Shown piece by piece: positions 6,822 through 33,931 of a stretch of DNA of 34,697 bases. The stretch lies in assembly GCA_007123515.1 (NCBI GenBank), contig SKKY01000159.1, forward strand, positions 1 to 34,697. The letters run 5' to 3'. Source of the DNA: Clostridia bacterium (GTDB lineage Bacteria; Bacillota; Peptococcia; Peptococcales; SKKY01). Numbering within the stretch: the stretch's first letter is position 1; every line of letters starts with the position of its first letter. A program made the translations under genes and the position numbers. Below the pieces are notes generated by a model that searched no databases, was not told where the DNA came from, and saw nothing but the letters and a program-made list of their open reading frames with translations.

Positions 6822-7778
6822 GTGGAGAAAAAAAGATATAACATTTATTCAGAGCACTTAAAAAATAAATATGGCGAGAAAGTATATAAGCTGCCTGTGA
6901 ATCTTCCGGGTACTTGCCCTAACAGGGACGGGAACGTGTCTGTGGATGGCTGTACTTTTTGCGATGAAGAAGGATCCGGTTTTGAATGTTTACCGAATGA
7001 TCTATCCGTAAAAAAACAGATAGAGATTAATAAAGCTTTTTTCATAAAACGCTTTAAAGCCAAGAAGTTCATTGTCTATTTTCAGGCATTTACAAATACC
7101 TATATGCCTCTTGAGGAATTTAAAAGCTGTATCATTCAGGCGGTTAAAGATCCTGATGTGGTTGGAGTTTCAATATCAACCAGACCGGATTGCGCCGCCT
7201 CTGAATATCTTGACTTTTTAGCGAAGGTCAAGCAGCGCTATAATATCTCTATTGATGTGGAATTAGGTTTGCAGACAGTAAACTATCATTCACTGATAAA
7301 AATAAACAGAGGTCATACGCTGGCTGAGTACATTGATGCGGCGCTGGCGATTAAAAGCAGAGGGTTTAATTTAGTCACACACCTTATTTTAAATCTTCCT
7401 TATGATACGATGACCGATGTGATTGAAAATGCAAAGGTTGTATCAGCGTTACAGTCAGATTATGTTAAATTGCACTCCTTGTATATTGTTAAAGGCACCG
7501 CATTAAGTAAAGACTATCAGGAAGAAAAGTTTTCTCTGATCTCTTTAGAGGAATATGTGGAGCGGGTGGTAACATTTGTTGAGTATGTAAGCCCGGATAT
7601 TGTCATTCAAAGAATTGTGGGTAAAGGGCCCCAGGGGAACCTTGATTTTTGCAACTGGCAGACAAGCTGGTGGAAAATTAAAGAAATGATTGATCAAAAG
7701 CTTGAAGAAGAAAATACCTTCCAGGGCAGAAAATGTAATTATCTAGATGGATCGGCGGTCAGAAAAGAATTTATGTAG
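6822..7778 (+). CDS. TIGR01212-type radical SAM protein (YhcC-like)
   Basis: KLPVNLPGTCPNRDGNVSVDGCTFCDEEGSGF: Cys motif typical of this radical SAM family; GTG start. Confidence 0.85.
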   Translation: MEKKRYNIYSEHLKNKYGEKVYKLPVNLPGTCPNRDGNVSVDGCTFCDEEGSGFECLPNDLSVKKQIEINKAFFIKRFKAKKFIVYFQAFTNTYMPLEEFKSCIIQAVKDPDVVGVSISTRPDCAASEYLDFLAKVKQRYNISIDVELGLQTVNYHSLIKINRGHTLAEYIDAALAIKSRGFNLVTHLILNLPYDTMTDVIENAKVVSALQSDYVKLHSLYIVKGTALSKDYQEEKFSLISLEEYVERVVTFVEYVSPDIVIQRIVGKGPQGNLDFCNWQTSWWKIKEMIDQKLEEENTFQGRKCNYLDGSAVRKEFM

Positions 7779-7787
7779 CAGGGTGGG

Positions 7788-8000
7788 GTGAAAATGCCAT
7801 TAAAAATCAAAGTAGGAGATCAGTTGCAGATGAAAAAAAAACATCCATGCGGAGGCGATCAATGGCTTGTTATGCGTACAGGAGCCGACTTTGTTATAAA
7901 ATGCCAAACCTGTTCTCATCAGACTTGGATTCCAAGACCTAAACTTGAAAAATCCATTAAGAAATGGACTCCGTCTGAGGGAGAGGAAGAAAAAGAATAA
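7788..8000 (+). CDS. DUF951 family small zinc-ribbon-like protein
   Basis: 70 aa; MKKKHPCGGDQWLVMRTGADFVIKCQTCSHQTWIPRPKLEKSIKK. Confidence 0.85.
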   Translation: MKMPLKIKVGDQLQMKKKHPCGGDQWLVMRTGADFVIKCQTCSHQTWIPRPKLEKSIKKWTPSEGEEEKE

Positions 8001-8105
8001 GATGCTTATCTGTCTTTACTTTTTCCTGTTTCTATGGTAACATTTTGCGTTGTAGACCCTGCTCTTGAAAAAAGAGCCAAAGTCCATGGGGGGAGGTGAA
8101 GACTA

Positions 8106-8390
8106 GTGCGCGAATACGAAATTATGTATATTCTAAACCCAGCTGAAGAAGGCGTCATTGAAGCTCAAATCGAAAAATTCAATAAAGTTATTGCTGATCA
8201 GGGTGGCGAATTAAAAACCCTAACGAAAATGGGTAATCGCAAACTAGCCTATGAAATTGACAAGAAGAATGATGGTTTTTATGTTCTTGCTCGGTTTATG
8301 GGTGATGAAAAGGTTACAGAAGAACTTACCAGAGTGATGAAGATCTCTGATGATGTAATTCGTAATTTAATTGTAAAAGTAGAAGAATAG
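8106..8390 (+). CDS. rpsF: 30S ribosomal protein S6
   Basis: MREYEIMYILNPAEEGVIEAQIEKFNKVI...GNRKLAYEIDKKNDGFYVLARF; GTG start with strong SD ggggggaggtg. Confidence 0.95.
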   Translation: MREYEIMYILNPAEEGVIEAQIEKFNKVIADQGGELKTLTKMGNRKLAYEIDKKNDGFYVLARFMGDEKVTEELTRVMKISDDVIRNLIVKVEE

Positions 8391-8408
8391 AATCGGAGGA
8401 TAAAGTCT

Positions 8409-8804
8409 ATGAACAGAGCCGTATTAGTTGGGAGACTGACAAAAGATCCTGAATTACGATACACCCAATCGGGAATTGCTGTAGCAGGCTTTACTGTTGC
8501 AGTGAACCGCAGATTTAGCCGTGAGGGAGAGGCTTCGGCAGATTTTATTCCCGTTACCGTCTGGCAGAAGCCAGCAGAAAATGTCGCAAAGTATTTAAGT
8601 AAAGGCAGCCAGGTTGCAGTAGATGGAAGAATCCAGACATCAAGTTATGAAAACAAAGAAGGTCAGCGTGTTTATAAAACAGAGATTATTGCTGACAATG
8701 TTGAGTTTTTATCACCTAAGGGTAGTACAAAAGGTTCTTCTGAAAATGATAATGATGGAGATTCACACAAGGGTGATTTTTCCAGTGATGAAATACCATT
8801 TTGA
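8409..8804 (+). CDS. ssb: Single-stranded DNA-binding protein
   Basis: [34 protein letters not shown]... C-terminal acidic tip SSDEIPF. Confidence 0.96.
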
Positions 8805-8819
8805 TGGGAGATGAGATAA

Positions 8820-9053
8820 TTGGTTAGACGCGAACGTGGTGGAAGAAGGAAAAAACGTGTTTGCAGTTTCTGTGCCGATAAAAGAAGTTTGATTGACTAT
8901 AAAGAGTTAAACAAACTGACAAAGTACACTTCTGAAAGAGGTAAGATTTTACCGAGAAGAGTATCAGGAAACTGTGCAAAACACCAAAGAGCCTTAACAA
9001 TCGCAATTAAAAGATCAAGATACATTGGTTTATTGCCATACATGATCGACTAA
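8820..9053 (+). CDS. rpsR: 30S ribosomal protein S18
   Basis: [65 protein letters not shown]; apparent TTG start. Confidence 0.95.
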
Positions 9054-9069
9054 AAGAATAAAGTATACA

Positions 9070-9108
9070 AAGGACAAGGATACGAAAGTTCCCTTGTCTT
9101 TTTTTGTG
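9070..9108 (+). terminator. Probable rho-independent terminator after rpsR
   Basis: gacaagg ... cccttgtcttttttt. Confidence 0.7.
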
Positions 9109-9159
9109 TTTTTCCACTATAATAGGTGGGTAGACAGACAAGGAGAGAGATTAAAAATA

Positions 9160-10149
9160 ATGACAACAACATTCAAAACCAGGCAAATAACAGAAGGTGC
9201 AATCATGGCTGTCATTACAGCAGTTTTCGCACTGATTGGAACGTTTGTTCCGTTACTAAACACCTTTACTTTTATGGTTATTGCCACACCTATCATCTTT
9301 GTAATTGTAAGAAATAATTTTTCAACCGGCATATTGTCTTCTTTGGTTGCCGCTTTTCTGGTGGGGATCTTTGCCGGACCAATCATTGCTTTGTTTTTTT
9401 ATCTGCAGTTTATGCTTTTGGCACTGGTATATGGCCATCTGATAAAAAAAGAAAGCAGCGTTGCAAAAATACTGTCTGCCGGAACCGTGGTATCGGTAGT
9501 GGGGACGATCATCGTTTTTGCCTTAATTGCTCTTACAGGGCAGTTAAATTTTGCACAACAACAGGAAGTTTTTTATGAAACCATTGACAGAACGATTGAA
9601 CAATATGAAAGAACAGGAATGCTCAGTGACTTAGAAGAACAGGGATTCACTCAAGAAGAAATCAGAGAAATGCTTGATGGGGTGATCCGTTTTATAATAA
9701 ATATAATTCCGGTGCTTATTGTTATTGCAAGTGCGTTAACGGCTATTCTTAACTTTATTTTTGCCAGTATGTTCTTAAGGAAATTTCAATATAAAGTTCC
9801 AAAGTTCCCAAAGTTTTCAGAGTGGAAACTGCCTTGGAACTCGATCTGGGGCTTTTTGGGAGCCTGGATTATTCTGCTTTTAGCCGATGTGCTTAATAAT
9901 AGTATGCTAATGGTTATCAGTCAAAACATTCTGATAGCCTATGGAGCCGCTTTTTTTATTACCGGTATTTCTACGGTTGCCCATATCTTTAAAAATGCAG
10001 AGCTTTCACCACTGTTAAGAATTGCTTTTGTCATTATTGTAGTCTTTATGTTTCAGAGTATAGTTGTAATTACTGCTATTATAGGCTTGTTAGATTTGTT
10101 ATTTGATGTACGAAAAAGAATGATGAAAAGAAAGGAAGAGAAACTATGA
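9160..10149 (+). CDS. DUF2232 / YybS-like membrane protein
   Basis: Hydrophobic multi-TM protein between rpsR and rplI; start re-assigned to ATG 9160 (SD aggagagaga) rather than 9094. Confidence 0.75.
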
Positions 10150-17130: not shown

Positions 17131-17206
17131 GAGCCATTAGCTCAGTTGGCAGAGCACCTGACTTTTAATCAGGGTGTCCCGCGTTCGAGTCGCGGATGGC
17201 TCACCA
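17131..17206 (+). tRNA. tRNA-Lys (anticodon TTT)
   Basis: gagccat...atggctc acceptor stem; anticodon loop cttttaa; T arm cgcgttcgagtcgcg; encoded CCA. Confidence 0.95.
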
Positions 17207-17214
17207 TTAAATAT

Positions 17215-17291
17215 GGCGCGTTGGAGAAGCGGCTTAACTCACCAGCCTTTCACGCTGGCATTCACGGGTTCGAATCCCGTACGCGTCACCA
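17215..17291 (+). tRNA. tRNA-Glu (anticodon TTC)
   Basis: ggcgcgt...acgcgtc acceptor stem; anticodon arm ccagc ctttcac gctgg; cgggttcgaatcccg; encoded CCA. Confidence 0.95.
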
Positions 17292-17300
17292 TTTTATTTT

Positions 17301-17376
<76 letters not shown>

Positions 17377-27977: not shown

Positions 27978-28057
27978 TTCTTGTTTCAATGACTACCGCC
28001 TCATTAGCTGCTGAAATAAAAAAAGTTGGAAAATGTATTTAAAAAACAAAAAAAGCA

Positions 28058-28085
28058 TTGACAAACAGGATAAACAGCGTATAAT
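28058..28085 (+). promoter_or_regulatory. Consensus sigma-A-type promoter for GNAT gene
   Basis: TTGACA - 16 bp - TATAAT. Confidence 0.75.
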
Positions 28086-28086
28086 A

Positions 28087-28120
28087 TTCATTATTATTCA
28101 TGTTGTTGAATATTTATTCA
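28087..28120 (+). promoter_or_regulatory. Putative tandem ArgR/AhrC operator (two ARG-box-like sites)
   Basis: Perfect palindrome TGAATATTTATTCA (28107-28120) and degenerate TTCATTATTATTCA (28087-28100; 2 mismatches to TGAATWWWWATTCA), 20 bp apart, directly downstream of the -10. Confidence 0.5.
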
Positions 28121-28132
28121 GGAGTGTTGTTT

Positions 28133-28660
28133 ATGCTTTATTCAGTAAGACATGCAACGGAAAAAGATGTTCCGTTTATTACAGAAATTTTCAATCAGGG
28201 TATTGAAGACGGAGTTGCCACGTTGGAAACCAGAGTTCAGAAAGATGAAGACATTCATAATTGGCTCACTAACAGAGATCCAAGATATGTTGTTATCGTG
28301 GTGCTTAATAATATAAATGAAATCTGCGGATATGCTTCGTTAAATAAATTTAACTTTAAAAGTGCTTATACAGGAGTAGCTGATATTTCCATTTATATAA
28401 AAAGATCTTCAAGAGGACAGGGTGTTGGCAAAATACTCTTAGACGGTTTATATGAAGCGGCAAAAAAAGAAGGTTTCTACAAGTTGGTTCTTAATGTTAT
28501 CAGCAAAAACAAAGCAGCGATTAAGTTTTATGAAAAGATGGGTTATTCCTATGTCGGAGTCTATAAAAATCAGGGAATGCTTCATGGTGAGTGGGTCGAT
28601 ATGATGATTATGGAGAAATTTTTAGCCGAAGGACTTAGCGACCAGGAATGTGCAGGATAA
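28133..28660 (+). CDS. GNAT family N-acetyltransferase (phosphinothricin acetyltransferase-like subgroup)
   Basis: VRHATEKDVPFITEIFNQGIEDGVATLETR...IYIKRSSRGQGVGKILLDGLYEAAKKEGFYKLVLNVISKNKAAIKFYEKMGY. Start at ATG 28133 (SD caggag), not 28100. Confidence 0.88.
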   Translation: MLYSVRHATEKDVPFITEIFNQGIEDGVATLETRVQKDEDIHNWLTNRDPRYVVIVVLNNINEICGYASLNKFNFKSAYTGVADISIYIKRSSRGQGVGKILLDGLYEAAKKEGFYKLVLNVISKNKAAIKFYEKMGYSYVGVYKNQGMLHGEWVDMMIMEKFLAEGLSDQECAG

Positions 28661-28685
28661 TTTAAATAAATAAGATAAAGAGAGC

Positions 28686-28743
28686 AAAACCATAAGAGAC
28701 GTTTCTAACCGGTACACTGGTGGGAACGTCTCTTATGGTTTTT
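28686..28743. repeat. Palindromic element, diverged REPIN-like copy / terminator
   Basis: aaaaccataagagacgttt ctaaccggtacactggtg ggaacgtctcttatggttttt: ~17-bp arms, T tract, and a core resembling 'gacgtttc..ggtataccag..gaacgtc'. Confidence 0.7.
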
Positions 28744-28825
28744 ATTTATAGCGATATTTGGACGAATGCGGTTATAAAAGGCTTTAAGGATTGACAATCC
28801 CACAGCTTTAGTTATCTTGACTAGA

Positions 28826-28862
28826 AAAGAGGGAGCCTTCTATTTCAAGGGGCTCCCTCTTT
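28826..28862. terminator. Hairpin adjoining left terminal repeat
   Basis: aaagagggagcc...ggctccctcttt, 12-bp perfect stem; T-rich afterwards. Confidence 0.7.
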
Positions 28863-28957
28863 ATATACATATACACAAAGTATAAACATGTTTAATTTTT
28901 GATGATCTGTGACGCATAAATCAGATACTACGCACATAAGTGTTTTTAAACATTATC

Positions 28958-30235
28958 TCAAGTTTGAACTGCCGATTTAATTTTCAACTCCTCTGTTTCA
29001 ATACAAAATAACCATTCAATTTTCTCCAATTCGGATTCTTTACTATCTTCCCAGTTAGCGTTAGTAAAAGCAGTTATAAATTTAAGGGTACTCCCATCAT
29101 CTGACCAGGACATATCTTTGTATTTCAGCATAGGTTCTCGAGAGTGAAGTATATTAAAACCTTCCTGTTCTAAAACGGTATTCAGCTTTTCCACATCAAG
29201 GGTAACCACATTTTCCTTTTGTTTTAGGTTATCTATATGCAACCAACTTCTTGGGCCATCTTCAGTAGAGATATAGGCAATATTTTCTTCGTCAGGAGAC
29301 CATTTTTTCTCCATTGCTAAGTCTCCCCACCCAATATTGGTAAAATTAACTTCATTATCGTTTAAGTCAATTATACCAAAAGCACCTATACGGAAAGGAC
29401 AAGCACCATAATTGTCTAAATCAAAAGCAATTTTATCTTCTGTAGGGGATATTTTCATAGCTCCAATGCCGTTAAAATAGTGAGGGGTTGGTGCTTCAGG
29501 ATTATCACCTAAGTATCCTTCTACTCCCTGGTACTCTAAAATAGTAGAACAAATAATTTTGCTCCAGTCTTCTTCCAAAACACTATACAGGTCCTCAATA
29601 CTAAATAATCTCTTGCCGTTATAGTACCACTTGATATTGGCCTTCTCCAGTCGCTCTGATAATTCAGGGGCTTTTTCATCAAGCTGACGAATGATGATCG
29701 TCTCTTCTAATTCGACCAATTCTTCTTCCACAACTAAGCGGTTAAAAGCCTTTATTGGAGGGCCCCGTCTTTCCCTCTCCAACTCCTTTCCCAGGTCCAA
29801 GATTCCTCCATCAATTTTGTCTTCTTCTCCTTTAACCAGTATCTGTTCCAGCTCTTCTGGTATATCACGGTCAAGCTCATGCTCGGCTGTTTGCTCCTCA
29901 AAAACAGCCATTAGATTTTTATCTTCAATTATTTCCAGCTTATGTCTTTTATCTGTGCTTAACTGATCCCCTTCTTTTTCCCATGCAACAAACTCGTAGC
30001 CTTCTTTGGGAGTGGCTTCTACTGTTATCTCTTCCCCTTCTTCATAAATGCCTTCTCCTATTATTTCGCCAACATCCTCAGGATCAGCTTGTACCTCTAC
30101 TTTGTATTCATTTACTTCATCTTGTTTATCCTGCTCATCCTCTGCTTTTTCCTCTGAAGCACATCCTGTAATAAAAATTGTTAAAGCTGTTAAGCTTATT
30201 ACTATCACTAAATAAGCTGATTTTCTTACTGGCAC
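28958..30235 (-). CDS. Lipoprotein with bacterial-repeat (InlB B-/Flg_new_2-like) domain and possible C-terminal propeller-like region
   Basis: Signal peptide and lipobox ALTIFITGCAS; YKVEVQADPEDVGEIIGEGIYEEGEEITVEATPKEGYEFVAWEKEGDQ...LMAVFEE; C-terminal ISPTEDKIAFDLDNY...KWSPDEENIAYIS repeats. Confidence 0.75.
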   Translation of the reverse strand: MPVRKSAYLVIVISLTALTIFITGCASEEKAEDEQDKQDEVNEYKVEVQADPEDVGEIIGEGIYEEGEEITVEATPKEGYEFVAWEKEGDQLSTDKRHKLEIIEDKNLMAVFEEQTAEHELDRDIPEELEQILVKGEEDKIDGGILDLGKELERERRGPPIKAFNRLVVEEELVELEETIIIRQLDEKAPELSERLEKANIKWYYNGKRLFSIEDLYSVLEEDWSKIICSTILEYQGVEGYLGDNPEAPTPHYFNGIGAMKISPTEDKIAFDLDNYGACPFRIGAFGIIDLNDNEVNFTNIGWGDLAMEKKWSPDEENIAYISTEDGPRSWLHIDNLKQKENVVTLDVEKLNTVLEQEGFNILHSREPMLKYKDMSWSDDGSTLKFITAFTNANWEDSKESELEKIEWLFCIETEELKIKSAVQT

Positions 30236-30356
30236 TTTACCACCTCTCTCTAATAAATTTTAAAATGATATGTCCTGTTGAAGAGGAACATAATATATCA
30301 AATGCGTATTAAATGGGTTCTTTTTAAAAGCATTCTTCCCTGCTTTTAAAATCAAA

Positions 30357-30740
30357 TTAAGTTAGTGAATCGTAAAATTTGCCACGCAACTTTTGCAGCT
30401 CTTCTTTAAGACGTTTATTCTCATCTTCTAGTTCTTTTATCTTTTTATTTTTTGCAGCAATTACAGCATCCTTGCTGGCATCAGTCATTTCTCTTTTAAC
30501 CTGCCTAGCAGAAGGAAGCCCTTCCTGCTGTTTCCGCAAATTTTCGATACGCTGACGAATTTCCTGGTTGGTGTAGAGATAAGCTTTGCTTACACTAGCT
30601 TCTTCGGCTACACTGTTAAAATTGATTCTATCTTTGTTCTTGACCAGGCGCTGGATGGCTTCATCAACTTTTTTGGCAGTTTGGGCTTTTCTGTGTTCGG
30701 CATGTCTTTTTAGACCTTCTGTGTTACGCTTGTGGGACAT
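30357..30740 (-). CDS. Tn554 TnpC-like / DUF6262 transposition accessory protein
   Basis: MSHKRNTEGLKRHAEHRKAQTAKKVDEAIQRLVKNKDRINFNSVAEEASVSKAYLYTNQEIRQRIENLRKQQ... with C-terminal coiled coil. Start set to the internal Met. Confidence 0.75.
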   Translation of the reverse strand: MSHKRNTEGLKRHAEHRKAQTAKKVDEAIQRLVKNKDRINFNSVAEEASVSKAYLYTNQEIRQRIENLRKQQEGLPSARQVKREMTDASKDAVIAAKNKKIKELEDENKRLKEELQKLRGKFYDSLT

Positions 30741-30775
30741 TTTGACGCTCCTCTCCAACGTACTCCCTTCTTTTT

Positions 30776-31768
30776 TTACCAGCTATGTGGTGGGCTTTGC
30801 CTTCTTTCAAGCAAAAGATCGAAGTGGCTGTGCCTGAACATATGAGAGGTTACATGTAGATCCGTTTTTGCCCTGAGCCTGCGGAAAAGGCTCATAACAT
30901 CTTCGTATTCCAGTGGCTGATATTTCTTGTCTCCCGATATTTTGATTAGCACATAGTTAGTGTCTACTTCATCGGTGTGATACTCCGCTATGTAATCAAA
31001 GAAAAGGTTGATTAGATCGGCTGAAACATCTACAGTGCGAGGACTGCATACGGTCTTGATTTCAGCAAGGTTGGGCAGTTCCCCCCGATCCTGCAGATGT
31101 ATTTTTTGAGCATCGGGTTCAACATCTTCTAACCATAAGGACAGCGCCTCCGAAATCCTAAAGCCCGTTTCCCAGAGTAAATTTATTAAGAACTTGTCCC
31201 TTAGGTTCTTGCAGGCGTTTAATAATTTTTCTACCTGTTCCTTGCTTAAGGTAGCAACATTTCTTTTGGGTTCTTGCAGTTTTAAGATTTTTGCTGTAAT
31301 AGGCTTGTCCTTATTGATGTGGTGAAGAAACCCCTTAAAACTTCTCCTGCTTCCTGAAACGGTTTTTTTAAGCTTCTCCGACAGTTGGATACTGTAGTCT
31401 TCATGCCTCATTAAGTAATCGTAAAAGTTAAGGACAGTAGATATTATCGTGTTTATCGTAGCTGGACTCCGTTTAGATTGAACGGGTTTTACAGGGGTAA
31501 TTTTGGAGCTGCTGTAAGGGTTTTTTAGCCACCTCACAAATGAAGCCATATCATCTATGCCAACTTCCCGATAGTCCAGCCCTTCTTGATTTAAAAACTC
31601 AAAAAACAGCTTCAAATGCTGGCAGTAACAGCGGAGGCTGTTTCTCGCTGCCTCACTGTTGTCTTTAAACTTAATATATTTCATCACTGGAATAACTGGC
31701 TTTCCTTCTTCATCTACCAGCATGTATCTAGTTCTGTCATCTGCTGTAGCAACAGTCACCACTTTCAA
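30776..31768 (-). pseudogene. Tyrosine recombinase/integrase (Tn554 TnpA-like), C-terminally truncated
   Basis: Phage-integrase fold: LLWETGFRISEALSLWLEDVE (Arg I region) and HMFRHSHFDLL (HxxRH). The ORF ends 'LLERRQSPPHSW*' with no downstream catalytic Tyr motif, and TnpB is absent before TnpC. Confidence 0.7.
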
Positions 31769-31867
31769 TTCCCTTCACCACCAAGACAGGAAGATTAAGT
31801 ATATTCATACTATACTACACATACTATATATTTATAATACTTATATGTATATTATTAAGTAAAAATA

Positions 31868-31912
31868 TAGAGGGATAAATCTTCTTGTAATACGTAGAAG
31901 ACTATCCCTCTA
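31868..31912. terminator. Hairpin adjoining right terminal repeat
   Basis: tagagggata aatcttcttgtaatacgtagaagac tatccctcta. Confidence 0.65.
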
Positions 31913-32191
31913 ACTAGTACAGATAACTAAAGCAATGGGATTCTTGAGTGATTAAACGCCATTCTGTTTCCAGTAGACAAGTATAACCTCAAGCTAAGGG
32001 CATGCGCATGCCATTGTCCTTCCTAAGACAGTACATGTAGTATCTTAGGCTGATAGACTTTTATCATCTTTTCCCATAGATGGAATGGTCTTATTTTCTA
32101 AGATAAAAATCAAGTTCAGGCTTGATATTTCCTGCAATGAAACCATTTTTACAGATCATTTTGGCGTAGCCTTTTTTTCCAACCGAGTGTC

Positions 32192-32548
32192 TCAGCTAAA
32201 GTCTTGAGCGAACTCTTCAATAGATTGCAACAGTAGTGTGGAAAAATAGGTTAATACAGGTCCACCGCCCATACTAACGGCGACTAGTCCGGCTTCCTGG
32301 ATTTCCTCTTTACTTGCCCCAGCCCGAAAGGCTTCATAGACATGGATCACGACACAATATTTGCATTTGATATGCAAGCCGATCGCAACACTGATTAGCT
32401 CTTTTTCCTTTACACTTAAAGCACCGGCGCTGTTTAAAGCCTTGCTTTGCTCAATAATGGCTCTAGCCGTATCGCGATTATCTTTCATAAATCCTTTAAA
32501 GCCGTCTTTATACTCTTTTAAAATTTCTCTTGGATTTTCCTGCATCAT
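32192..32548 (-). CDS. Carboxymuconolactone decarboxylase / AhpD-like family protein
   Basis: LSVKEKELISVAIGLHIKCKYCVVIHVYEAFRAGASKEEIQEAGLVAVSMGGGPVLTY (CxxC...H motif). Confidence 0.87.
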   Translation of the reverse strand: MMQENPREILKEYKDGFKGFMKDNRDTARAIIEQSKALNSAGALSVKEKELISVAIGLHIKCKYCVVIHVYEAFRAGASKEEIQEAGLVAVSMGGGPVLTYFSTLLLQSIEEFAQDFS

Positions 32549-32710
32549 TATAAACCCTCCGTTAGTCATAGTATTCGATACACTCTGTTATATTACATAC
32601 CCGAATTATGATTTCGTTAAAAATTAAACACGTTTCCAAAAGTAGTAACATTTTGTCTGATGATTCTGGTATGATAGTATCAGAATTAATTTTATCCGAT
32701 TATGGATTAG

Positions 32711-32754
32711 CTCAATTAACATTTAGATGGAGTTCATACTCCACCTGAATTGAG
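32711..32754 (+). promoter_or_regulatory. Hairpin in the leader of the methyltransferase gene
   Basis: Outer stem ctcaatt/aattgag and inner stem tggag-ttcata-ctcca, 29 bp upstream of the ATG at 32783. Confidence 0.4.
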
Positions 32755-32782
32755 TTTCACTTTATAACAGAGGGGAAAAATC

Positions 32783-33931
32783 ATGGAGAACTACAGAATT
32801 ATTGTTGCAACCGCTTTCGGCATGGAAGCGACTTGCAAAAGAGAAATGCTGGCACTTGGCTATGAAAAACTGCAGGTGGAAAACGGACGTATTGAGATAG
32901 ACGGTAGTTTTGCCGATATTGCGAAGCTAAGCATCTGGCTTAGAACAGCAGAAAGAATCAAAATTAAAATAGCAGAATTTAGAGCAGAAACCTTCACAGA
33001 ATTATTTGACGGAACAAGAACCGTCAATTGGTCGGACTTTGTCCCAAAAGGGGGAGCATTTCCGGTTGATGCAAAATCTGTAAAGTCAAAGCTTTTTAGT
33101 TTATCGGATTGTCAAAAAATAGTGAAAAAAGCGATGGCGGAAAGTCTAAAAGAAGTAAGGAATGAAGATTGGCTGGATGAATCCGGATCATTATATCGAT
33201 TTGAAGTCAGTATGCTTAATGACATAGCCACGATTACGCTTGATACTTCAGGTCCCGGGCTTCACAAGCGCGGGTACCGTAAATTAGTAGGTTCAGCACC
33301 AATAAAAGAAACCATGGCAGCAGCGATGATTGATTTAAGTTACTGGAATAAAGACAGGCTGTTGTTAGATCCGATGTGCGGATCTGGCACTTTTCCGATA
33401 GAAGCGGCTTTAATAGCCCGAAACATTGCACCGGGGCTTAACAGAACATTTACTGCAGAAACCTGGGGAAATTTTCCGGTCGATGTCTGGAAGAAAGAAC
33501 GAACTGAAGCAAAAAAACAGATCGATTTTGACACAGAATTACAACTATATGGTTACGATTATGACCCGGAAACGATAGAAATTGCAAAAATTAATGCGGA
33601 TGATGCCGGTGTATTGGAAGATATCGTATTCGAACAGAAGGATTTCCTCGCACTTGGGCCAAAGCTCCCCTGGGATTACGGAGTGATGATTACCAATCCC
33701 CCTTACGGAGAGAGGATCGATAAAAGAGATGAAGCCATCCAGATTTACAGAAAATTTGGAGAGTTAATGAGCGATAACCCCACATGGTCATATTACCTTC
33801 TTACATCCAATGAAGATTTTGAAGGAGCCGCAGGCAAAAAAAGTGATCGAAAAAGAAAAATGTTCAACGGAAATATCAGGGTTGATTACTATCAATATTA
33901 TGGTCCAAGACCACCGAGAAAAGAACAATAA
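32783..33931 (+). CDS. THUMP-domain class I SAM-dependent RNA methyltransferase (RlmL/RlmK/YpsC type)
   Basis: VATAFGMEATCKREMLALGYE, LLLDPMCGSGTFPIEAALIARNIAPG, MITNPPYGERID (NPPY), FNGNIRVDYYQYYGP. Confidence 0.93.
   Translation: MENYRIIVATAFGMEATCKREMLALGYEKLQVENGRIEIDGSFADIAKLSIWLRTAERIKIKIAEFRAETFTELFDGTRTVNWSDFVPKGGAFPVDAKSVKSKLFSLSDCQKIVKKAMAESLKEVRNEDWLDESGSLYRFEVSMLNDIATITLDTSGPGLHKRGYRKLVGSAPIKETMAAAMIDLSYWNKDRLLLDPMCGSGTFPIEAALIARNIAPGLNRTFTAETWGNFPVDVWKKERTEAKKQIDFDTELQLYGYDYDPETIEIAKINADDAGVLEDIVFEQKDFLALGPKLPWDYGVMITNPPYGERIDKRDEAIQIYRKFGELMSDNPTWSYYLLTSNEDFEGAAGKKSDRKRKMFNGNIRVDYYQYYGPRPPRKEQ

Follow-up and report, generated by a model that had tools for sequence, protein, structure and literature searches.

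Results

The window analysed here is the whole stretch of 34,697 nucleotides from contig SKKY01000159.1 of a Clostridia bacterium, and all positions without another label refer to it. An element with three genes on the minus strand lies in it, flanked on one side by a gene for an ArsN1-like acetyltransferase and on the other by an AhpD-like gene. The cargo is an open reading frame for a predicted lipoprotein of 425 aa with a divergent InlB B-repeat domain (28958–30235; Pfam PF18998, E = 7e-11), for which no relative was found in the PDB. Next to it lies an intact tnpC (DUF6262; 30357–30758; PF19776, E = 5e-20), which is syntenic with the tnpC of locus L038 described below and whose true start is probably the in-frame ATG near 30740. 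The third gene is a truncated tnpA of 330 aa (30776–31768), identified as a tyrosine recombinase by alignment and by Pfam (PF00589, catalytic; PF02899, SAM-like). An earlier sequence-only reading had proposed a truncated tyrosine recombinase, a TnpC/DUF6262 gene and a lipoprotein here, and all three are present according to Pfam, the reading frames and the alignment.

The window TnpA is 69% identical to the intact TnpA of L038. In the alignment with 14 relatives it stops after HMFRHSH, and the GHxxxxTTxxxY segment with the catalytic tyrosine is absent. Frame reading and blastn against L038 place a deletion scar at 30759–30863 (minus strand), where the last ~18 codons of tnpB are fused out of frame to the truncated tnpA. 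The other frame of the scar reads HHIAGKKRREYVGEERQ (cf. RHLAGKKGREYVGEERL at the tail of the L038 TnpB), and the blastn similarity skips from L038 position 7134 to 9235. Because HHIAGKKRREYVGEERQ matches the end of the L038 TnpB and the similarity jumps in this way, we take it that the window has lost about 2.1 kb, which held the end of tnpA and almost the whole tnpB. No second recombinase of this kind was detected in the bacterium's own assembly, which is 86% complete.

Two features outside the element can be mentioned. The acetyltransferase (28133–28660) scores above the NCBIfam cut-off for the arsinothricin resistance ArsN1 family A, and three tandem tRNA genes lie at 17131–17373.

The best inverted repeat in 28001–33000 is the pair 28796–28824 / 31914–31942, with arms of 29 nt (25/29 matching, 86% complementary) separated by 3,089 nt. 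Its score of 18 lies above all 20 first-order shuffles, in which the maximum was 12–16; the left and right end regions match in BLAST at E = 8e-5, and in a gapped alignment the similarity continues into the hairpin that adjoins each copy on its inner side. The left hairpin (28826–28862, plus strand; inverted-repeat search and folding) has a perfect 12-bp stem, AAAGAGGGAGCC/GGCTCCCTCTTT; the right one, at the tnpA end (about 31868–31912, minus strand; AGAGGGATA...TATCCCTCT), was found by folding and has homologues in the two nearest relatives, L038 and L039. Folded as DNA they reach -13.0 and -10.6 kcal/mol (z about -5.4 and -4.7, respectively), with all shuffles weaker. The paired inverted ends, their coordinates and the inward hairpin at each of them had been noticed from the letters alone, and these observations are confirmed.

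Each repeat copy consists of an outer arm of 17 bp and an inner part of 12 bp. The left outer arm (AATCCCACA followed by GCTTTAGT; 28796–28812, plus strand) matches the right one (31926–31942, minus strand) at 15/17 positions. The inner parts are the terminal repeats of the element, TATCTTGACTAG at the tnpC-distal end (28813–28824, plus strand) and TATCTGTACTAG at the tnpA end (31914–31925, minus strand; inverted-repeat search and comparison with relatives), and they match at 10 of 12 positions. No third copy of the 39-bp end sequence was found in the bacterium's own genome assembly, and its matches in 100 relatives looked, on reading, like chance matches or lone terminators. Rfam gave no match inside the element.

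About 400 genomes of the phylum were surveyed for TnpA; two gave 68–69% identity and several 30–54%. Across families, classes, a phylum sample, viral contigs, phages and plasmids, the only further clade members with more than 60% identity over the full TnpA are those in genomes G156 (locus L038) and G214 (locus L039). L038 has overlapping tnpA (376 aa), tnpB (655 aa) and tnpC (129 aa), and its element ends right past tnpC. In L039 the tnpB gene is internally deleted, and the cargo gene is a different one, encoding a copper amine oxidase N-terminal domain. The DNA of these two elements is 83–93% identical. At both ends of each element an ACT(A/C) motif precedes a hairpin that matches its counterpart in the window, AGGGATA...TATCCCT at the tnpA end and GAG(G/A)GAGCC...GGCTC(C/T)CTC at the other; thus the ACT of the repeat at 28813–28824 and the hairpin after it are kept in both relatives. 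At the position of the left hairpin their stem reads GAGAGAGCC/GGCTCTCTC, with a G-C pair changed to A-T (noted by eye). In L038 the complete tnpA-tnpB-tnpC lies between such homologous end hairpins. Paired ends around a complete tnpABC and around different cargo, anticipated by the sequence-only reading, were both seen, although split over the two elements (the complete operon in L038, the different cargo in L039).

These comparisons bear on the proposal that the repeats merely serve host genes as a pair of ordinary terminators, with no tie to mobility. The hairpins do have A/T tracts and stand beside convergent genes, and a strong terminator hairpin lies nearby (28686–28742). However, in two other genomes the same hairpins, with unchanged spacing, delimit Tn554-type operons, one of which has a complete tnpABC, and the whole segment is missing from G020, a genome of the same genus. 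We consider this explanation very improbable.

In the TnpA tree the window protein falls together with those of L038 and L039 in a well-supported Tn554-family set (100/99); the L038 TnpA is 38–39% identical to those of Tn554 and Tn558. L038 has the gene set of the family (overlapping co-directional tnpA of ~360–375 aa, tnpB of ~630–650 aa, and tnpC). The window element is a deleted member of the Tn554 family, with tnpC intact, tnpA truncated and only a tail of tnpB; the missing catalytic tyrosine, a mark of an active element of the family, makes it a relic. Its description as a Tn554-like relic therefore agrees with the gene content, the tree and the truncation. With Tn554, Tn558 and Tn553 it has in common the tnpA-tnpB-tnpC order, the DUF6262 TnpC, the cargo between tnpC and the far end, a TnpA in the same tree and the terminal inverted repeats, reported to be imperfect in Tn554 (PMC10214605). 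The Tn554 and Tn558 copies examined sit in a radC/JAB-domain gene, whereas the attachment site (attB) of the window lineage is most likely an intergenic palindrome; the radC/att554 target defines Tn554 and Tn558 themselves and not all their relatives. The window lineage further differs from these two in having a hairpin at both ends, and the window copy in lacking most of tnpAB.

SEs and GInts likewise have paired tyrosine recombinases and a small TnpC-like protein, and SEs have imperfect inverted repeats of 13–19 bp (PMC10214605). They differ in a fourth protein, Tfp/GinC, and are reported mostly from Proteobacteria; neither the window nor L038 has such a third recombinase-like gene. RIT elements (recombinase in trio) have three recombinases, ritA-B-C, and no DUF6262; three adjacent tyrosine recombinases were likewise absent from the window and L038.

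Relatives in genome G129 show the family in motion: three copies of 3,687 bp, 99.95–100% identical, stand in differing surroundings with variable junction bases, and we conclude from such near-identical copies that the Tn554-type family moves. These copies have terminal repeats matching at 12/12 bp (AACTCGTGGTCA) and one hairpin, so that terminal repeats are nothing unusual in this branch of the family. Their junctions are variable over ~6 bp, and a 6-bp footprint is reported for the Tn554 family (PMC10214605). Typical members of the family also have a short junction core and lack a conventional target duplication. The sequence-only reading had taken classical Tn554 to lack terminal inverted repeats and had suggested an atypical or undescribed family on that ground. 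That premise is contradicted by PMC10214605, the near relatives carry the 12/12-bp repeats, and a new family is not supported. The window element is an ordinary but decayed family member; its target is unusual and may be informative.

In G020 the ArsN1-like and AhpD-like genes are adjacent and convergent, ~165 bp apart, and the region between them contains neither the element nor the AATCCCA palindrome. The intergenic sequences of G020 and the window are otherwise too different to align at the exact site, and the window junction is not fixed base by base. As a separate observation, the ~165-bp region in G020 (locus L063, contig C120) folds as a single, very long hairpin (-103 kcal/mol), in which imperfect arms of ~48 bp enclose a terminator.

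The outer arms behave differently from the rest of the ends. The similarity between L038 and L039 ends abruptly outside TAAATG...TAGATA, and beyond it the arms read CCCC(A/C)TGGCTAA(A/T)GT in L038 and CCCTCAAT(AA/TT)ATT in L039; in the window as in L038 and L039, one outer arm repeats the other in inverted orientation. In a fixed 17-bp register they match at 15/17, 13/17 and 11/17 positions, respectively. Over 147,694 positions of the studied loci the mean is 4.5, with at least 11 matches in 0.19%, at least 13 in 0.018% and at least 15 in 0.005%, fractions that overstate the significance somewhat because the register was chosen after seeing the three sites. Six insertions of a sister Tn554-type clade, scored by the same rule, gave 1–7/17 and no such symmetry. 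Since the outer ~17 bp varies between insertions and yet is palindromic within each, we read it as most likely the target. The 29-bp repeat is then most likely composite, the inner ~12 bp (TATCTnnACTAG) with the hairpin being the end of the element and the outer ~17 bp half of the target. For the window itself, the analogy with the relatives makes its outer arms probably target-derived. Of the long repeat first described as the element ends, the inner part and the hairpin thus stand, and the outer part appears to belong to a palindromic target. A 6-bp stretch, TAAATG/TATCTG, was considered as a target-derived core and dropped, as it is common to L038 and L039 in spite of their different sites and is missing from the uninterrupted L039 target.

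The outer flanks of L039 recur in other places: both sides in G214 contig 23 and in G185, and also in G072 and G331. The copies on G214 contig 23 form the terminal hairpins of an IS200/IS605 element that encodes TnpB and a Y1 transposase (Pfam E = 7e-42), and G185 has a similar IS200/IS605 element. The uninterrupted target sequence of the L039 type is TTCCCTCAATAAATTGAGGGGGA, and the G214 and G185 copies hold no Tn554-type element. The IS200/IS605 terminal hairpin is therefore the landing site of the G214 relative, i.e., a target, and the Tn554-type element itself has no Y1 transposase. An 8-bp AATAAATT is found at both sides of the L039 element, as expected if strand exchange fell within that loop. 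At the locus of G262 (same genus) syntenic with L039 there is neither a Tn554-type element nor a piece of the IS. The L038 site hairpin lies ~260 bp past the 3' end of an IS605-type tnpB, a position which suggests that this target is of the IS200/IS605 kind too; the uninterrupted L038 target was not found in 117 kb of G156. No recognisable IS lies near the window site, nor was its own target seen in uninterrupted form. Only three palindromic targets are known.

As to the IS copies themselves, the element of G214/G185 has near-identical end hairpins (L094, 1377–1413 and 3115–3165). A ~55-bp miniature derivative consists of just the two outer halves (L097, about 2130–2180); such a miniature stands by itself in G331.

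An alternative is that all 29–39 bp belong to the terminal inverted repeat of the element, in a family with fast-evolving ends. Repeats that match within an element and differ between elements are usual for transposons, and the six outer arms have A1, A6, G12 and G13 in common; the arms are thus not wholly unrelated and could be partly element sequence. Against this, L038 and L039 are otherwise so similar, and yet their similarity halts at the proposed boundary, while the L039 arms match IS200/IS605 ends which elsewhere hold no Tn554-type element. We regard this alternative as unlikely, if less so than the paired terminators.

Discussion

We believe, with a probability of roughly 0.78, that 28813–31925 is a decayed Tn554-family transposon inserted in a palindromic attB, the outer arms being the halves of the target. 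In its intact stage, TnpA and TnpB, both tyrosine recombinases, would have acted with TnpC to recognise the short inverted ends (the TATCTnnACTAG class), and the element would have left as a circle, by excision or by copying. Integration of the circle would take place through strand exchange within a short central core of an inverted-repeat attB, the halves of which would thereafter flank the element as its outer arms. TnpC would assist, and the circular intermediate would carry a few flanking bases; these steps are drawn from the biology of Tn554 and SEs (PMC10214605). The later deletion of ~2.1 kb cost TnpA its catalytic end and removed almost the whole of TnpB; the element can therefore no longer move by itself, and the lipoprotein gene is left between its two neighbours. 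The inner hairpins are conserved features of the element and most likely serve as transcription terminators that insulate it; they may also have a role in recombination.

It is tempting to go further and propose that a Tn554-family lineage of Clostridia-like bacteria integrates at the centre of natural DNA hairpins, including IS200/IS605 ends, guided by symmetry or structure more than by sequence; we offer this tentatively. In such a case the lineage would read folded hairpins, possibly in single-stranded DNA, and not duplex sequence, with IS200/IS605 end hairpins as landing sites, which is a refinement of the palindromic-target explanation and compatible with it. The joined targets fold well (z of -7.9 for the window and -4.7 for L038), and the L039 and L038 sites described above point the same way. 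On the other hand, the core sites of tyrosine recombinases are inverted repeats in any case, the outer arms have positions in common, the window site has no IS beside it and the link at L038 is positional. Recognition of folded hairpins is thus possible but doubtful; that a symmetric duplex sequence is recognised, as by other tyrosine recombinases, is no less likely, because the six arms share the four positions.

Members of the Tn554 family carry clinically important resistance genes, and the site choice and movement of Tn554-type transposons are unsettled. Palindromic targeting is plausible as a modest new variant of target choice, resting on three insertions; integration at hairpin centres, if true, would be a new rule of target choice for tyrosine-recombinase transposons. 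In practical terms, an apparent “terminal repeat” of a Tn554-type element can include target sequence.

The six right junctions of the sister clade (L040, L042, L043, L044, L051, L052) all lie directly upstream of a Shine-Dalgarno-like AGGAG(G), with an ATG within about 5–15 bp of it, and this clade appears to target ribosome-binding sites. A lineage with symmetric and varied attB sites and a sister lineage landing at ribosome-binding sites together offer natural material for the study of target recognition in the Tn554 family.

Independent internal deletions were also seen in the tnpA-tnpB-tnpC of several Tn554-type elements: from tnpA to the end of tnpB, within tnpB, and from tnpB to tnpC (window 30759–30863, the L039 tnpB, and L078 1740–2418).
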